Positions 15,892-21,321 of a stretch of 34,893 nucleotides of DNA are shown in pieces (position 1 is the first letter of the stretch; each line of letters opens with the position of its first letter). The notes beneath the pieces are model-generated. The model was not told the origin of the DNA. It did not search any database and saw only the letters and a list, made by a program, of their open reading frames with translations. Where the stretch lies: NCBI GenBank assembly GCA_012729595.1, contig JAAYCU010000242.1, positions 1 to 34,893 on the forward strand, written 5' to 3'. This stretch comes from Phycisphaerales bacterium (GTDB lineage Bacteria; Planctomycetota; Phycisphaerae; UBA1845; PWPN01). The position numbers and the translations under genes were made by a program.

Positions 15892-15993
15892 GTTCAGAAC
15901 CTGGCCGGGCAACAAGGGGGGAACAGGGCAGCCCAGGGCATCCGCCCAAGCCCGGAACAACTCGGCTTCGGCGTCGGTGATGCGTTTACCTGC
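15892..15993 (-). repeat. Dispersed M48-C-terminus-derived repeat, copy 1
   Basis: Minus-strand reading SAGKRITDAEAELFRAWADALGCPVPPLLPGQVLN*; similar at DNA and protein level to copies at 17228, 21322 and 22307. Confidence 0.8.
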
Positions 15994-16009
15994 ACTGTAT
16001 ATTATAAAC

Positions 16010-16030
16010 AAAAAGAGCTGCGTCCCCTTT
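16010..16030 (+). repeat. Left inverted-repeat end of cassette
   Basis: AAAAAGAGCTGCGTCCCCTTT; inverted match to 17176-17195. Confidence 0.8.
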
Positions 16031-16066: not shown

Positions 16067-16408
16067 TTACTGAAACATCCGCTGGATCATTGAGCGGACT
16101 GTCTGTAATTGTTCTGAAGGCATAACGCCGAGCGTGCTTTTAACGACCTGCTGACTAATGGTCATCAGTATGGACCAGCGAATAGTCTTAGATTGAGCGC
16201 GTAATCCTGTCTGCTTAAACCAATCCGCCCCTGCATCGAGAGGAAAAATGTTCATATCGTTCGGAAATTCCTGAGCACTGATTGGAACGGCAACGAAATC
16301 TTCCCTACTATTGAACACATCGCTGGACACAATCAAAGCAGGGCGCACTTTGCATCCCGATCCATCCGTGAAGGGGTATTCCAACAATATGATCTGCCCA
16401 CATTTCAT
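16067..16408 (-). CDS. PemK/MazF-like type II toxin
   Basis: MKCGQIILLEYPFTDGSGCKVRPALIVSSDVFNSREDFVAVPIS...LRAQSKTIRWSILMTISQQVVKSTLGVM; ATGA overlap with upstream gene. Confidence 0.8.
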   Translation of the reverse strand: MKCGQIILLEYPFTDGSGCKVRPALIVSSDVFNSREDFVAVPISAQEFPNDMNIFPLDAGADWFKQTGLRAQSKTIRWSILMTISQQVVKSTLGVMPSEQLQTVRSMIQRMFQ

Positions 16409-16620
16409 AAAGGCCCGCCGTCACCCGGCGAATAAATATCCTCACATGGATCATTCCAAAAATCCAAACATCCGGCAGATTCTATCAGACGCATTTGCTG
16501 CAATTGCGTAGGGTCGGACACTTGGCCATCCACTACCTGAATGGGGTTCGGGCAAACGACGAAAGAGGGCTCATCTTCATTCATATCTAACGGCGGCAAG
16601 TCCAAGATTGTAGTTGTCAT
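16405..16620 (-). CDS. Putative acidic antitoxin-like protein (71 aa)
   Basis: MTTTILDLPPLDMNEDEPSFVVCPNPIQVVDGQVSDPTQLQQMRLIESAGCLDFWNDPCEDIYSPGDGGPL; adjacent to toxin with ATGA overlaps on both sides; LDFWNDPCEDIY resembles a toxin-binding tail. Confidence 0.6.
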   Translation of the reverse strand: MTTTILDLPPLDMNEDEPSFVVCPNPIQVVDGQVSDPTQLQQMRLIESAGCLDFWNDPCEDIYSPGDGGPL

Positions 16621-17015
16621 GGTTTTTCTCCCGGTTGAACCAAGACCACCTCAAATGGCCGTTGGAGCAAGAGTTCCTCACTCCACAACTCTATATAATG
16701 TCTCCCCGGTTCCTTGAAGCGTACATTTTTTATAAAAAAGTGCATATCGCATATTGTCCCAGGATTTACTTGTGGTGGAAAATCTAATTTCGCCTCGGCG
16801 ACTTGTTCATCTGTTTCAGAATGAACGATTTTGACCTTGATGGATGTTCCAGCGTGCACATCTGTAACCGCCGCATATACACAAAGATTGGGATGCACAC
16901 ATGGAAACTTATGGGACCTTACAGTGTTAAATATACCTACCAAGGCTGTTTTTTTACTTGGATCGACATAAATCGATTCACATACGACCAAAGCTATGGG
17001 ACGTGGGTTGATCAT
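16617..17015 (-). CDS. DUF6941-like family protein
   Basis: MINPRPIALVVCESIYVDPSKKTALVGIFNTVRSHKFPCVHPNLCVYAAVTD...GRHYIELWSEELLLQRPFEVVLV; pattern recalled for DUF6941. Confidence 0.65.
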   Translation of the reverse strand: MINPRPIALVVCESIYVDPSKKTALVGIFNTVRSHKFPCVHPNLCVYAAVTDVHAGTSIKVKIVHSETDEQVAEAKLDFPPQVNPGTICDMHFFIKNVRFKEPGRHYIELWSEELLLQRPFEVVLVQPGEKP

Positions 17016-17052: not shown

Positions 17053-17081
17053 ATTTTAGCTAGCCAGGGAAAGAATAACAA
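17053..17081 (-). promoter_or_regulatory. Putative sigma70-type promoter of the DUF6941/antitoxin/toxin operon
   Basis: Minus strand TTGTTA - 17 bp - TAAAAT, 38 bp upstream of the ATG at 17015. Confidence 0.5.
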
Positions 17082-17149: not shown

Positions 17150-17176
17150 GGGGAGATAGGGGAGATAGGGAAGATA
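17150..17176 (+). repeat. Three tandem 9-bp units abutting right inverted repeat
   Basis: GGGGAGATA GGGGAGATA GGGAAGATA. Confidence 0.8.
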
Positions 17177-17195
17177 AAGGGGACGCAGCTCTTTT
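17176..17195 (-). repeat. Right inverted-repeat end of cassette
   Basis: Plus strand AAAGGGGACGCAGCTCTTTT = reverse complement of AAAAGAGCTGCGTCCCCTTT. Confidence 0.8.
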
Positions 17196-17227: not shown

Positions 17228-17309
17228 GTTCCAGGCCTCGGCATCGGCGATGCGTTTATCGGCATTGATGCAGGCAGCGCCGGCCTTGAGGCCGAAAAGA
17301 GCTGCCCTT
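17228..17309 (-). repeat. Dispersed M48-C-terminus-derived repeat, copy 2 (truncated)
   Basis: Minus-strand reading AALFGLKAGAACINADKRIADAEAWN; near-identical DNA to copy 3. Confidence 0.85.
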
Positions 17310-17327: not shown

Positions 17328-20300
17328 TCACGGGCACGCCGGGCAATCGCTGTTGCAGTTGGTCGGGCTGTTCCCGTGAACCGTCATGCCGCTGACCACC
17401 GTACCGCCGGCGCAGGCGATCCCGCCACCGCCGGTTGACGCGGAATCCGTCAGCGTGTTGTCGGTCACCACGCAGTCCAAAATCGAGCAGCCCATGCCGG
17501 TCCAGATCCCACCGCCGCCGGTGGTCGCGGTGTTGTCGTTGACCGTACACTGGCTGGCCGTACTCTTGAACAGGCTGAGCCCGCCGCCCCATTGCGAGGC
17601 AACGTTGCCGGTGATCGTGGAGGCCATGATGTCGCCTTCGGCGATGTGGGCACCGCCGCCCTGCGGCGCCGAGTTGTTCTCGATTTGGCACAAGCTGACA
17701 AGAGGGTACCACCGCTCCGCCTGGCCGATCGCGTAGATTCCGCCGCCGCGATAGGACGCCTCGTTGTCCATGAACGATGAACTGAGCACGTAGACATCCT
17801 TGTCGCTGCCGAGCCCGCCACCGTTCCTGGCCGTATTGTAAGCCGCGTACACGTCGGCGATCACCGACGTGACGGCGATATCCGACAGGCTGCCCTGAAC
17901 GAAAATGCCGCCACCGTCGCCCTCGATCGCCTCGTTGCTTGTCAACTGGCAATTCGTGACGTTGGACTGTTCGAGGTAGATGCCGCCGCCCTGGCTGTAG
18001 AAGGCGTTTCCGGCGGTCCCGGCCCGGTTGCGCAGAAGGAAGCCCGAATGGATCCGGCTGTAGCTCGCGCGGATTCCGCCGCCGCGCTGGCCTGCGGTGT
18101 TGTCGATCAATTCGACCTGCGAGACCTCCGTCCCGTCGCACCAGATGCCCCCGCCGTCCTTACCGGCCGAGTTCTCGGTAAACACGCAGCCAACGATGAA
18201 GAGCGGCTTGCCCTCGGAAACGATGTTCGCATGAATGCCCCCGCCATCCTCGCCGGCCTGATTGGCGTCCAGGACACAGTTCTGGATCGACACCCCGTTG
18301 GCCGCCTTGATGCCGCCGCCGTCGCGTTCGGCGATGTTGCGGGCGAAGACGCAGCCGGTGATCGTGGAATACTCGCGGGCCGATACGCCGGCTCCGTTCT
18401 GGGCCGTATTGTCGGTAAAGACACAGTCGGTCAGGATGGCATTGGCAGCGAACGCCCCGCCCCCGCCGGTGAACGCACTGTTTTGCGCAAAGGTGCAATC
18501 GATCAACCGGCATTGGTTCGCCGCGATGCCGCCGCCGGAGGAACCCGCGGTATTGCCGACGAACGTGCAGTTCGTCAGGATCGGCACGTGGTCCTCATCC
18601 TTCGGTACGTTCGCCAGGTTGACCGCTCCGCCGGACGAGGTCGCGTGGTTGGACTCGAAGCGGCAATTCGTGAAGGACACGAGCGTTCCACCGTCCGAGA
18701 CATGGACGGCCCCGCCGTCGCGGGCCTGACAGGCGCGGAAGGTGCAGTTGTTAAAGGCGACGTTGGCGTTGCCGCTCAGCCGCAGGGCCCCGCCAAAGTT
18801 GCCCGAGCCGCGGTAGATCTGCAGATTCCGGAAGGTGACATGCGTGCCGTGCAGCCAACCCAGCCGGGCGGCGTCGGCCAGATCGATGATCGTCGTGTCC
18901 GGGCCGGCCCCTTCGATCACCACGTGGTCGCGCGGGATGATGATTTCGTGGAATCCGTCTCCGGAGTGCGTACCGGCCTCGACATGGATGATGTCGTTGT
19001 AGGTCGCCGCGTTCAACGCGGCCTGGAGCGTGGGGTACTGGCTGGGTACATAGAGCGTCCGCGGCGGGTTGGAGGCGAAGATCGCCCGGACGCTTCTGTT
19101 GGTGGTCATCTCCAACACGCCGGTCAGCTCGTCACCGGTGAGAGAACCCTCCCAATGATGGAACTCGAAACCGGCGGCCGGCTGGGCCGCGACCAGGACG
19201 TTGATCCCCCACGGGTACGGGCCGGTGCCGGGGAACAACTGAATCTCGCCGGCGCCGGGCGGGAAAACCTCGGTGGTAACGGTGTAGGTGGGCAGGCCCG
19301 TTCCCGTCCCCGCCCCGGTCCAACTGTCGCCCATGCCTTCGGGCACGATGCCCGCGATGAACAGCTTGGATGCGTCGACGGGCTGGCCGGACAGGGTGGC
19401 CGCGTGCAGCGTCTGACTGCTGCCGCTCATCAGGTTGCGAACGGTCCAACCGGCCACCTCGTAGCCGGTATTCGGCTGAGCGGTCATATTGAGCGACTGG
19501 TTGAACAGATAGAGATCCCAAATCAGATCTTTCGGCGAAATGGCCGCCGTGCCCAGTCCGGCCGGATCCACATCGGCCAGCATCCGCGCGAGCAAGACCT
19601 GACGGGCCTTGAACAGGTTGTGCGAGTAGGTGTAGCTCGGTAAGCCGTCGATAATCGCGAACTTCAGGTTGAAATCACACTTGCTACCCCGGCCCAGCTC
19701 GGCGCCGAGCACGCCGTCCCTGTAGGTGCCTGCCAGTTCGAGGTACTCCTTCCAGGACAGCGACGGGCCGACGACGCCAAAGAAGGTCATCCCGAACTTC
19801 GGCTTGACGTAGATGCGGGCGGTAATCGGCGTGATGCCCCACTCCGGCGTGTGCGGCGTGACCGTAAGCGTCCTCTCGGCAATGGGGATCCAGCCCTCGC
19901 CCTTTGTGTATTCGGCACCGAGCGTGGCACCGGCGTTGAAGTCCATACCGGCAGTGATGGTGCCCATGTCCCCGAAGACCACCTCCGCGCCGATCGCGAC
20001 CTCGAGGAAGGCCTGGTATATGATGGGCGGCCCGCCGACGATGTAAATGAAGCCGAAGGGATTAGGCCACTTGGCCTTGGCGATCGTCGTTTCCTTGCTG
20101 ATAAGTTCCGAGACCTTGTACGCCTCGACGGAAACCCCCAGCCCGAGATGGAAGTCGGTGCCGGCCGTGAGGCGCAGGTGCTTGAGGCTGCTATCCTCGA
20201 TCTCGGCCGTGAAGTCGAAGTCCGGACTGAAGTCGATCGTCAACTGATCGAGAGTAACCTTACCCCATCCGTCCAACGAGATCGAGTGGTCGGTGAAGGT

Positions 20301-21044
20301 CAGCGAGGCCATGCCCCGGTTGCCGCGCGTCAGGCGGACTTGCTTCATGTTATCCGGCAACGCCATGCCTGCCGTCTCGAGAACCACATCGTCGGGATCG
20401 AATGGAACGCTGAACTCAAGGGTGCCGTTTTGGATCAGGTCGGTCAGGGCCGCCTGCTCGGTCGCGACGGTCGTCTGCTCGCCGTTGCTTATCGCCGGGG
20501 AGATCACGCGGAGCAACCGGCCTTCGCCGCGCGTGGACAGCAGTAACGTACCGGGAGCGATCGAAGCCGGAACCTCGCTGCCGGTCAGCGTGGCTTGTCC
20601 GTCAGCATCGACGATGATCTCAACGGTGTCCGGCAGAACGCGAAGGTTCTTGTTGATCGTAATGTCTCCCGTCCCCTCGTCGATGGCGACGAAGACGGCC
20701 TGGATCTGGACGTTCGCGTTGATCGTGAGCGGCAGTGGGTTGGTGGCGCCGGCGGCGTCGCCTTCCCATCGCTCGAACCGGAAGCCGGCGGCGGGCGTGG
20801 CGGCAAGCGTGACCGGCGCGCCGGCGGCATAGGTGTCCTGGGCGGGATCGAGCGCAACGATACCCCCGCCCTCGGGCATAACCGTCACCGTGATGGTATA
20901 CCCGTCCTCCGGCTCCAGGCCATCCGGAGGCACACAGCTCCCGACCAAGACCGCCAGCGCGCCGGCCAACACGAAGGCTGTTGCCTCGAAGGCAGAAGAC
21001 CGACGGACCCGTGTCACGAGTGGATTACATGCTTGTCGGCTCAT
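17328..21044 (-). CDS. Large lipoprotein with InlB-type repeats and a C-terminal right-handed beta-helix (Pmp-like GGG repeats)
   Basis: Likely start MSRQACNPLVTRVRR at 21044; lipobox LAVLVGSC. Two VTL..P..GF.F..WEG modules; YPTLQAALNAATYNDIIHVEAGTH; many GGGI/CxFxxN repeats. Confidence 0.88.
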   Translation of the reverse strand: MSRQACNPLVTRVRRSSAFEATAFVLAGALAVLVGSCVPPDGLEPEDGYTITVTVMPEGGGIVALDPAQDTYAAGAPVTLAATPAAGFRFERWEGDAAGATNPLPLTINANVQIQAVFVAIDEGTGDITINKNLRVLPDTVEIIVDADGQATLTGSEVPASIAPGTLLLSTRGEGRLLRVISPAISNGEQTTVATEQAALTDLIQNGTLEFSVPFDPDDVVLETAGMALPDNMKQVRLTRGNRGMASLTFTDHSISLDGWGKVTLDQLTIDFSPDFDFTAEIEDSSLKHLRLTAGTDFHLGLGVSVEAYKVSELISKETTIAKAKWPNPFGFIYIVGGPPIIYQAFLEVAIGAEVVFGDMGTITAGMDFNAGATLGAEYTKGEGWIPIAERTLTVTPHTPEWGITPITARIYVKPKFGMTFFGVVGPSLSWKEYLELAGTYRDGVLGAELGRGSKCDFNLKFAIIDGLPSYTYSHNLFKARQVLLARMLADVDPAGLGTAAISPKDLIWDLYLFNQSLNMTAQPNTGYEVAGWTVRNLMSGSSQTLHAATLSGQPVDASKLFIAGIVPEGMGDSWTGAGTGTGLPTYTVTTEVFPPGAGEIQLFPGTGPYPWGINVLVAAQPAAGFEFHHWEGSLTGDELTGVLEMTTNRSVRAIFASNPPRTLYVPSQYPTLQAALNAATYNDIIHVEAGTHSGDGFHEIIIPRDHVVIEGAGPDTTIIDLADAARLGWLHGTHVTFRNLQIYRGSGNFGGALRLSGNANVAFNNCTFRACQARDGGAVHVSDGGTLVSFTNCRFESNHATSSGGAVNLANVPKDEDHVPILTNCTFVGNTAGSSGGGIAANQCRLIDCTFAQNSAFTGGGGAFAANAILTDCVFTDNTAQNGAGVSAREYSTITGCVFARNIAERDGGGIKAANGVSIQNCVLDANQAGEDGGGIHANIVSEGKPLFIVGCVFTENSAGKDGGGIWCDGTEVSQVELIDNTAGQRGGGIRASYSRIHSGFLLRNRAGTAGNAFYSQGGGIYLEQSNVTNCQLTSNEAIEGDGGGIFVQGSLSDIAVTSVIADVYAAYNTARNGGGLGSDKDVYVLSSSFMDNEASYRGGGIYAIGQAERWYPLVSLCQIENNSAPQGGGAHIAEGDIMASTITGNVASQWGGGLSLFKSTASQCTVNDNTATTGGGGIWTGMGCSILDCVVTDNTLTDSASTGGGGIACAGGTVVSGMTVHGNSPTNCNSDCPACP

Positions 21045-21321
21045 TGTTTTCGCCTTTCTGATATGAGGGCGAGTGGAATTGTCGTACCGGTTCAAGATCG
21101 TTCGGCGACCCAGCCTCACCGCCTATTATCATACCAGCGCGGCGCGGTCAAATACAGCACTGGGACCGTCTTTCCCAAGAGCCATCCCCCACACCCGGCA
21201 GGTCGCCGGCGATTCCGGCCGCTAGGCCCTCCCCGTCGATGCCGCCGTGTGCTGCTGCTCTCGATCCGTATCTTAAATAATGATTCCCGTCACGCCGTTA
21301 CGGCATGAGCCGACCCGGATG

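Follow-up and report, generated by a model that had tools for sequence, protein, structure and literature searches.

Why is a gene of the DUF6941 family placed first in an operon that ends with a PemK/MazF-family toxin, and what could its product contribute to a toxin-antitoxin (TA) system? The operon lies in a stretch of 34,893 nucleotides (in the following, the window), which corresponds to contig C227 in a 97% complete MAG of 4.1 Mb from the Phycisphaerae (Planctomycetota). Between positions 16067 and 17015, its minus strand encodes a DUF6941 protein of 132 aa, an acidic protein of 71 aa and a PemK/MazF toxin, and both gene junctions are ATGA stop/start overlaps. A check of the open reading frames reproduced these coordinates, the strand and the overlaps, all of which had been reported in a preliminary description of this DNA. 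The operon and its upstream region comprise the following features:

16617 to 17015, minus strand: DUF6941 gene, first in the operon (Pfam PF22091 and AlphaFold2 model)
16405 to 16620, minus strand: gene for the acidic 71-aa protein, the proposed antitoxin (no Pfam family; conserved in all relatives)
16067 to 16408, minus strand: gene for the PemK/MazF-family toxin, 113 aa (Pfam PF02452)
17053 to 17081, minus strand: candidate promoter TTGTTA-17-TAAAAT, upstream of DUF6941 (position only)

The candidate promoter had previously been called a good one. The pattern exists and matches the consensus at 9 of 12 positions, but this judgement was overstated: there is one match in 1.8 kb, against a mean of 2.2 in shuffled sequences, so the pattern is no evidence by itself. 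Likewise, a repeat search upstream of DUF6941 found no operator palindromes beyond short chance repeats. Upstream of the operon, a 1263-aa ORF (17328–21119, minus strand) with GGGI-type repeats resembles a secreted β-helix protein.

The toxin belongs to PF02452 (E = 6.3e-12; 46.1 bits against a cut-off of 23.1; positions 1–109 of 109), and a profile of its family retrieves MazF6 (E = 2.7e-5) and Kid (E = 5.2e-5) from the PDB. Residues R22, P23 and S44 are invariant in the eight toxins of the family; we take them to be positions of the MazF catalytic pocket, with serine replacing threonine. Homology therefore suggests that the protein would cleave RNA and that this activity would be neutralised by an antitoxin.

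The 71-aa protein matches no Pfam family, and a sequence comparison with the PDB returned nothing credible. It has a net charge of −12 (−9 to −15 across the window-type proteins described below) and is built from a disordered N-terminus, a single helix at residues 39–48 and the tail LDFWNDPCEDIYSPGDG, with LDFWNDPCEDIY close to the C-terminal end. The AlphaFold2 model has a mean pLDDT of 62.6, with one helix and the remainder at low confidence. The conserved residues of the family, of which D36, G50, F54, W55, E60 and Y63 are invariant, sit in the short helix and the tail. The preliminary description had thus rightly pointed to an antitoxin-like tail without an obvious DNA-binding domain.

The family profile of the 71-aa protein also matches the antitoxins of three PemK loci that lack DUF6941 (L084, L085 and L090), which allows a direct comparison. 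In two-gene PemK loci of the same class, the related-tail antitoxins of L085 and L090 start with an AF2212-like domain (9.5e-7 and 6.7e-5), and the antitoxins of L088 and L096 carry DUF2281 (1.9e-6 and 5e-6), whereas the trio antitoxins have no recognisable N-terminal domain of either kind and DUF6941 is encoded in trans. At L084 (reverse strand, 487–1842), a bare antitoxin and PemK are preceded by a different protein of 248 aa, which has no match in Pfam or NCBIfam and is perhaps another third component; the missing domain may therefore have been replaced more than once.

The first gene product is a member of PF22091 (E = 3e-17; 63.6 bits against a cut-off of 27). Its AlphaFold2 model (pLDDT 91.1, pTM 0.83) consists of ten strands and no helix, a predicted Ig-like β-sandwich to which no solved structure is closely related. 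By sequence, no credible relative was found in the PDB, and by structure, the matches there are UNC119, the carbohydrate-binding domains of Wzt and other sandwiches, all of them weak (TM about 0.45–0.58). Homology to SecB was considered and rejected, as there is no SecB family match and no SecB among the top PDB fold matches. The best matches among predicted structures are small phage proteins without an assigned function (BFVD A0A2H4JCJ7 and A0A2P1JU14; TM 0.79; E = 9e-10 and 1.7e-8).

These properties bear on the proposal, made in the preliminary description, that DUF6941 is a regulator, a chaperone or a sensor. We retain a role as third component, but the fold and charge disfavour a simple DNA-binding regulator. 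Such a regulator is nevertheless the main rival to the reading we develop below: DUF6941 would control transcription of the operon and thereby stand in for the DNA-binding domain that is not recognisable in the antitoxin, comparable to omega and PaaR, whose genes are also placed first (PMC4803016). Yet the predicted sandwich is free of helices, its net charge ranges from +2 to −11 across the window type, near neutral or acidic, and Pfam finds no match to a DNA-binding family. As modelled, DUF6941 is unlike known DNA-binding antitoxins, or SecB, in both fold and charge, even though some Ig-like folds, such as those of p53 and Rel, do bind DNA. Furthermore, two loci present a four-gene version of the operon, in which a 72-aa RHH-like gene directly upstream of DUF6941 (L008, 1896–2153, minus strand; L040, 3778–3996, plus strand) would be the natural regulator, although these genes match TacA1 below the cut-off (E = 0.0017 and 0.016). 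Weakened by fold and charge, this explanation appears unlikely to us.

If DUF6941 contributes to the TA system, it should accompany it in other genomes. With the window's DUF6941 as query, 101 genomes yielded seven proteins at 44–51% identity, after which identity falls to about 30%. All seven are encoded upstream of the same acidic protein and PemK, in identical order and on the same strand; in one of them (L010), the toxin reading frame breaks off within a few codons, the only broken toxin in the linked subfamilies. Named genomes added two window-type members, L038 (truncated where its contig ends) and L040, and a window-type trio (L079) is found in another family of the class. Within the order, this subfamily occurs in 9 of 114 genomes, and the trio is present in all nine. 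A second subfamily, which we refer to as type II, repeats the arrangement with other components: at L014, L016, L020 and L024, DUF6941 is followed by a short protein and then by a PemK of a different subfamily, and the antitoxin ends in PPxxWWDxxxDPF or similar. The type II profile finds eight members in the 114 genomes, each with the matching antitoxin and toxin. Outside the order, further DUF6941 branches show the same gene order (L048, L059, L081, L082, L083 and L095). The named relatives belong to the Phycisphaerae and other Planctomycetota.

For the family as a whole, the association is uncommon: of the roughly 90 DUF6941 loci that the order-level search matched, 14 are accompanied by PemK, including the new type II loci L117 and L132. 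This rate covers the loci retrieved by the search itself together with 59 others extracted by coordinate, among which a broader PemK profile found no further PemK, and excludes L079, L081–L083 and L095, which were discovered via the toxin search. The neighbourhood analysis that the preliminary description had called for thus gives a divided answer, with few PemK neighbours overall and exceptionless linkage in two subfamilies (9/9 and 8/8); the latter supports its central claim of a three-component TA operon with DUF6941. At L054 (2218–2505, plus strand), a weak, possibly frameshifted MazF-like fragment (E = 0.064) lies downstream of another DUF6941 and may be an extra pairing.

The host itself illustrates both situations. 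It has exactly two DUF6941 genes and two PemK genes, and its second DUF6941 (G000:C269:22190-22576; L002, L003), which is 34% identical to that of the window, is not accompanied by PemK and precedes an mraZ-like gene, as was also noted for L015. Most of the order has roughly one relative at 25–36% identity per genome, and these relatives probably represent an ordinary, housekeeping form. Since most DUF6941 genes have no PemK neighbour, the family must also have some other role.

Could the window's DUF6941 then be a mere passenger, with an unrelated function, that shares the operon by happenstance? The many DUF6941 genes of the order that stand away from PemK would agree with this, but in neither linked subfamily of the order have the neighbours ever been lost, bar the one broken toxin, and the association with PemK is found on several DUF6941 branches. 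We consider a passenger highly improbable. Chance neighbourhood was likewise rejected: with only two genes of each kind in the genome and an arrangement that recurs across many genera, the association is far above chance. When 67 DUF6941 proteins are placed on a tree, association with PemK changes seven times, against a mean of 18.0 after shuffling (0 of 500 shuffles were as low), and the well-supported branches by themselves require no fewer than three changes; as this tree is built on only 131 columns and leaves many forks unresolved, the independent origins are to be understood as a range rather than a count. Finally, the distances between DUF6941 proteins correlate with those between the toxins (Mantel test: r = 0.84, P = 0.0001 for 13 loci; r = 0.53, P = 0.003 for the nine loci of the window type), from which we conclude that the genes travel as a unit, contact between their products not being proven thereby.

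Given these observations, we tentatively favour a type II TA module of three parts, with DUF6941 as a binding partner that stabilises the antitoxin, a reading that we rate at somewhat below an even chance. PemK would cleave RNA, and the short, acidic and mostly disordered antitoxin would wrap the toxin with its C-terminal LDFWxDPxEDIY tail. It would do so without the N-terminal domain by which ordinary PemK/MazF antitoxins bind DNA and dimerise; such a bare, disordered protein likely depends on a partner to remain stable or to assemble. The candidate for this partner is DUF6941, which is present throughout and whose gene invariably comes first: as the first product of the operon, it would bind the antitoxin and maintain its fold, its stability or its correct assembly. 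The toxin would then be set free once DUF6941 is lost, titrated away or released by a ligand, and DUF6941 may itself sense the trigger.

The strict linkage and joint divergence of the genes would also agree with a composite antitoxin, in which both proteins share the neutralisation and DUF6941 has no chaperone role. However, the 71-aa protein has a tail similar to those of antitoxins from two-gene loci and should therefore suffice for PemK binding, which makes a shared neutralisation very doubtful.

The similarity of DUF6941 to phage proteins raises another alternative. As kin of phage β-sandwich proteins, which are its best structural matches (TM 0.79), it could act as a sensor or bait that recognises an invader and frees the toxin, leading to abortive infection. 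There is precedent in a TAC-type system, CmdTAC, which frees its toxin upon T4 infection (PMC11618068), and PHROG 5881 matches one type II DUF6941 (E = 6e-5), while two trio loci adjoin a terminase-like gene. On the other hand, the function of PHROG 5881 is not known, no PHROG matches the DUF6941 of the window itself, and PADLOC gave no match. Searches of viral contigs with the DUF6941 profile and of plasmids with DUF6941 proteins found none, nor did a search of phages with the window's DUF6941; a single Leuconostoc phage match was insignificant (E = 0.6) and discarded. We regard such a sensor as rather improbable. This also applies to a more speculative, and decidedly improbable, combination with the reading we favour, in which DUF6941 represents a new class of third component, a phage-protein-related sandwich that holds a PemK antitoxin devoid of a DNA-binding domain until a competing phage product frees the toxin, so that the module would be a new tripartite anti-phage TA system.

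The surroundings of the trios provide some hints at mobility. In the window, the operon is framed by two pairs of repeats, all found by repeat search:

16011 to 16030, plus strand: left arm of a perfect 20-nt inverted repeat, AAAAGAGCTGCGTCCCCTTT
17176 to 17195, minus strand: right arm of the 20-nt inverted repeat
15964 to 15997, plus strand: left copy of a 34-nt direct repeat (82% identical), outside the inverted repeat
17234 to 17267, plus strand: right copy of the 34-nt direct repeat

The operon within these repeats is possibly a small mobile cassette. The 20-nt repeat has only these two copies in the genome, even when up to two mismatches are allowed, and was therefore rejected as a general mobile-element end of this genome; it is absent around the relatives. 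At L079 (also L166), a perfect 29-nt direct repeat is found on both sides of the trio (525–553 and 1935–1963), and one of its copies coincides with the 3′ end of a terminase-like gene, the position expected of a duplication made by integration. Such a gene lies directly upstream of the distant trios L079 and L082 (L166, 1937–3577; L167, 5576–7024), with an HTH repressor-like gene nearby, so that these locations are possibly prophage-derived sites. The L081 trio lies between queC-like and queE-like genes, names that we assigned by eye from the sequence. Together, the two trio types occur in 17 of the 114 genomes, a patchy distribution that fits a horizontally moving module.

To our knowledge, TA systems have been little studied in Planctomycetota. 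The DUF6941-PemK trio, with an architecture read from sequence, is real and conserved, and it appears to be an undescribed tripartite TA system. That its composition had not been described was already suspected in the preliminary description, and neither DUF6941 nor PF22091 is named in the open-access literature searched; subscription papers and preprints lay mostly outside this search, so a prior report is possible. The trio provides a first functional lead for DUF6941 and suggests how PemK antitoxins could manage without a DNA-binding domain. Furthermore, its two strictly linked subfamilies, with their different toxins and antitoxins, are a ready partner-swap system for studying recognition by DUF6941.

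Among known systems, MazEF and PemIK (Kis-Kid) share with the trio the toxin family, the small acidic antitoxin encoded upstream in an overlapping operon and the aromatic/acidic tail. A 2009 TA survey names AbrB, RHH and XF1863-type partners of MazF. The window operon differs by its additional first gene and by an antitoxin without an AbrB-like, AF2212-like or other N-terminal domain; with three genes and a middle protein in which no domain is recognised, it is not a classical two-gene module whose antitoxin has its own DNA-binding domain. In omega-epsilon-zeta and paaR-paaA-parE, a regulatory or accessory gene comes first and the toxin last (PMC4803016), as in the trio, but omega belongs to the RHH proteins and PaaR regulates transcription, whereas DUF6941 is a predicted β-sandwich, and the toxin families differ. 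The TAC systems, including CmdTAC, likewise have three genes, one of them for a possible antitoxin-stabilising partner, and the antitoxin CmdA has a long unstructured part (PMC5105189, PMC11618068), as does that of the trio. Their third protein, however, is SecB-like, whereas that of the trio is a predicted Ig-like sandwich that is encoded first, and their C-terminal ChAD extension is not recognisable in the trio antitoxin, which ends in a tail of the toxin-binding type. In pasABC of pTF-FC2, a third small protein, PasC, aids neutralisation by the antitoxin (PMC4803016) and is comparable to DUF6941 as a possible helper, although PasA is itself the repressor and both toxin family and gene order differ. 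By analogy, the trio probably follows the partner logic of TAC and pasABC with a new fold, and DUF6941 would then be a non-SecB candidate for the short list of third components in tripartite TA systems.
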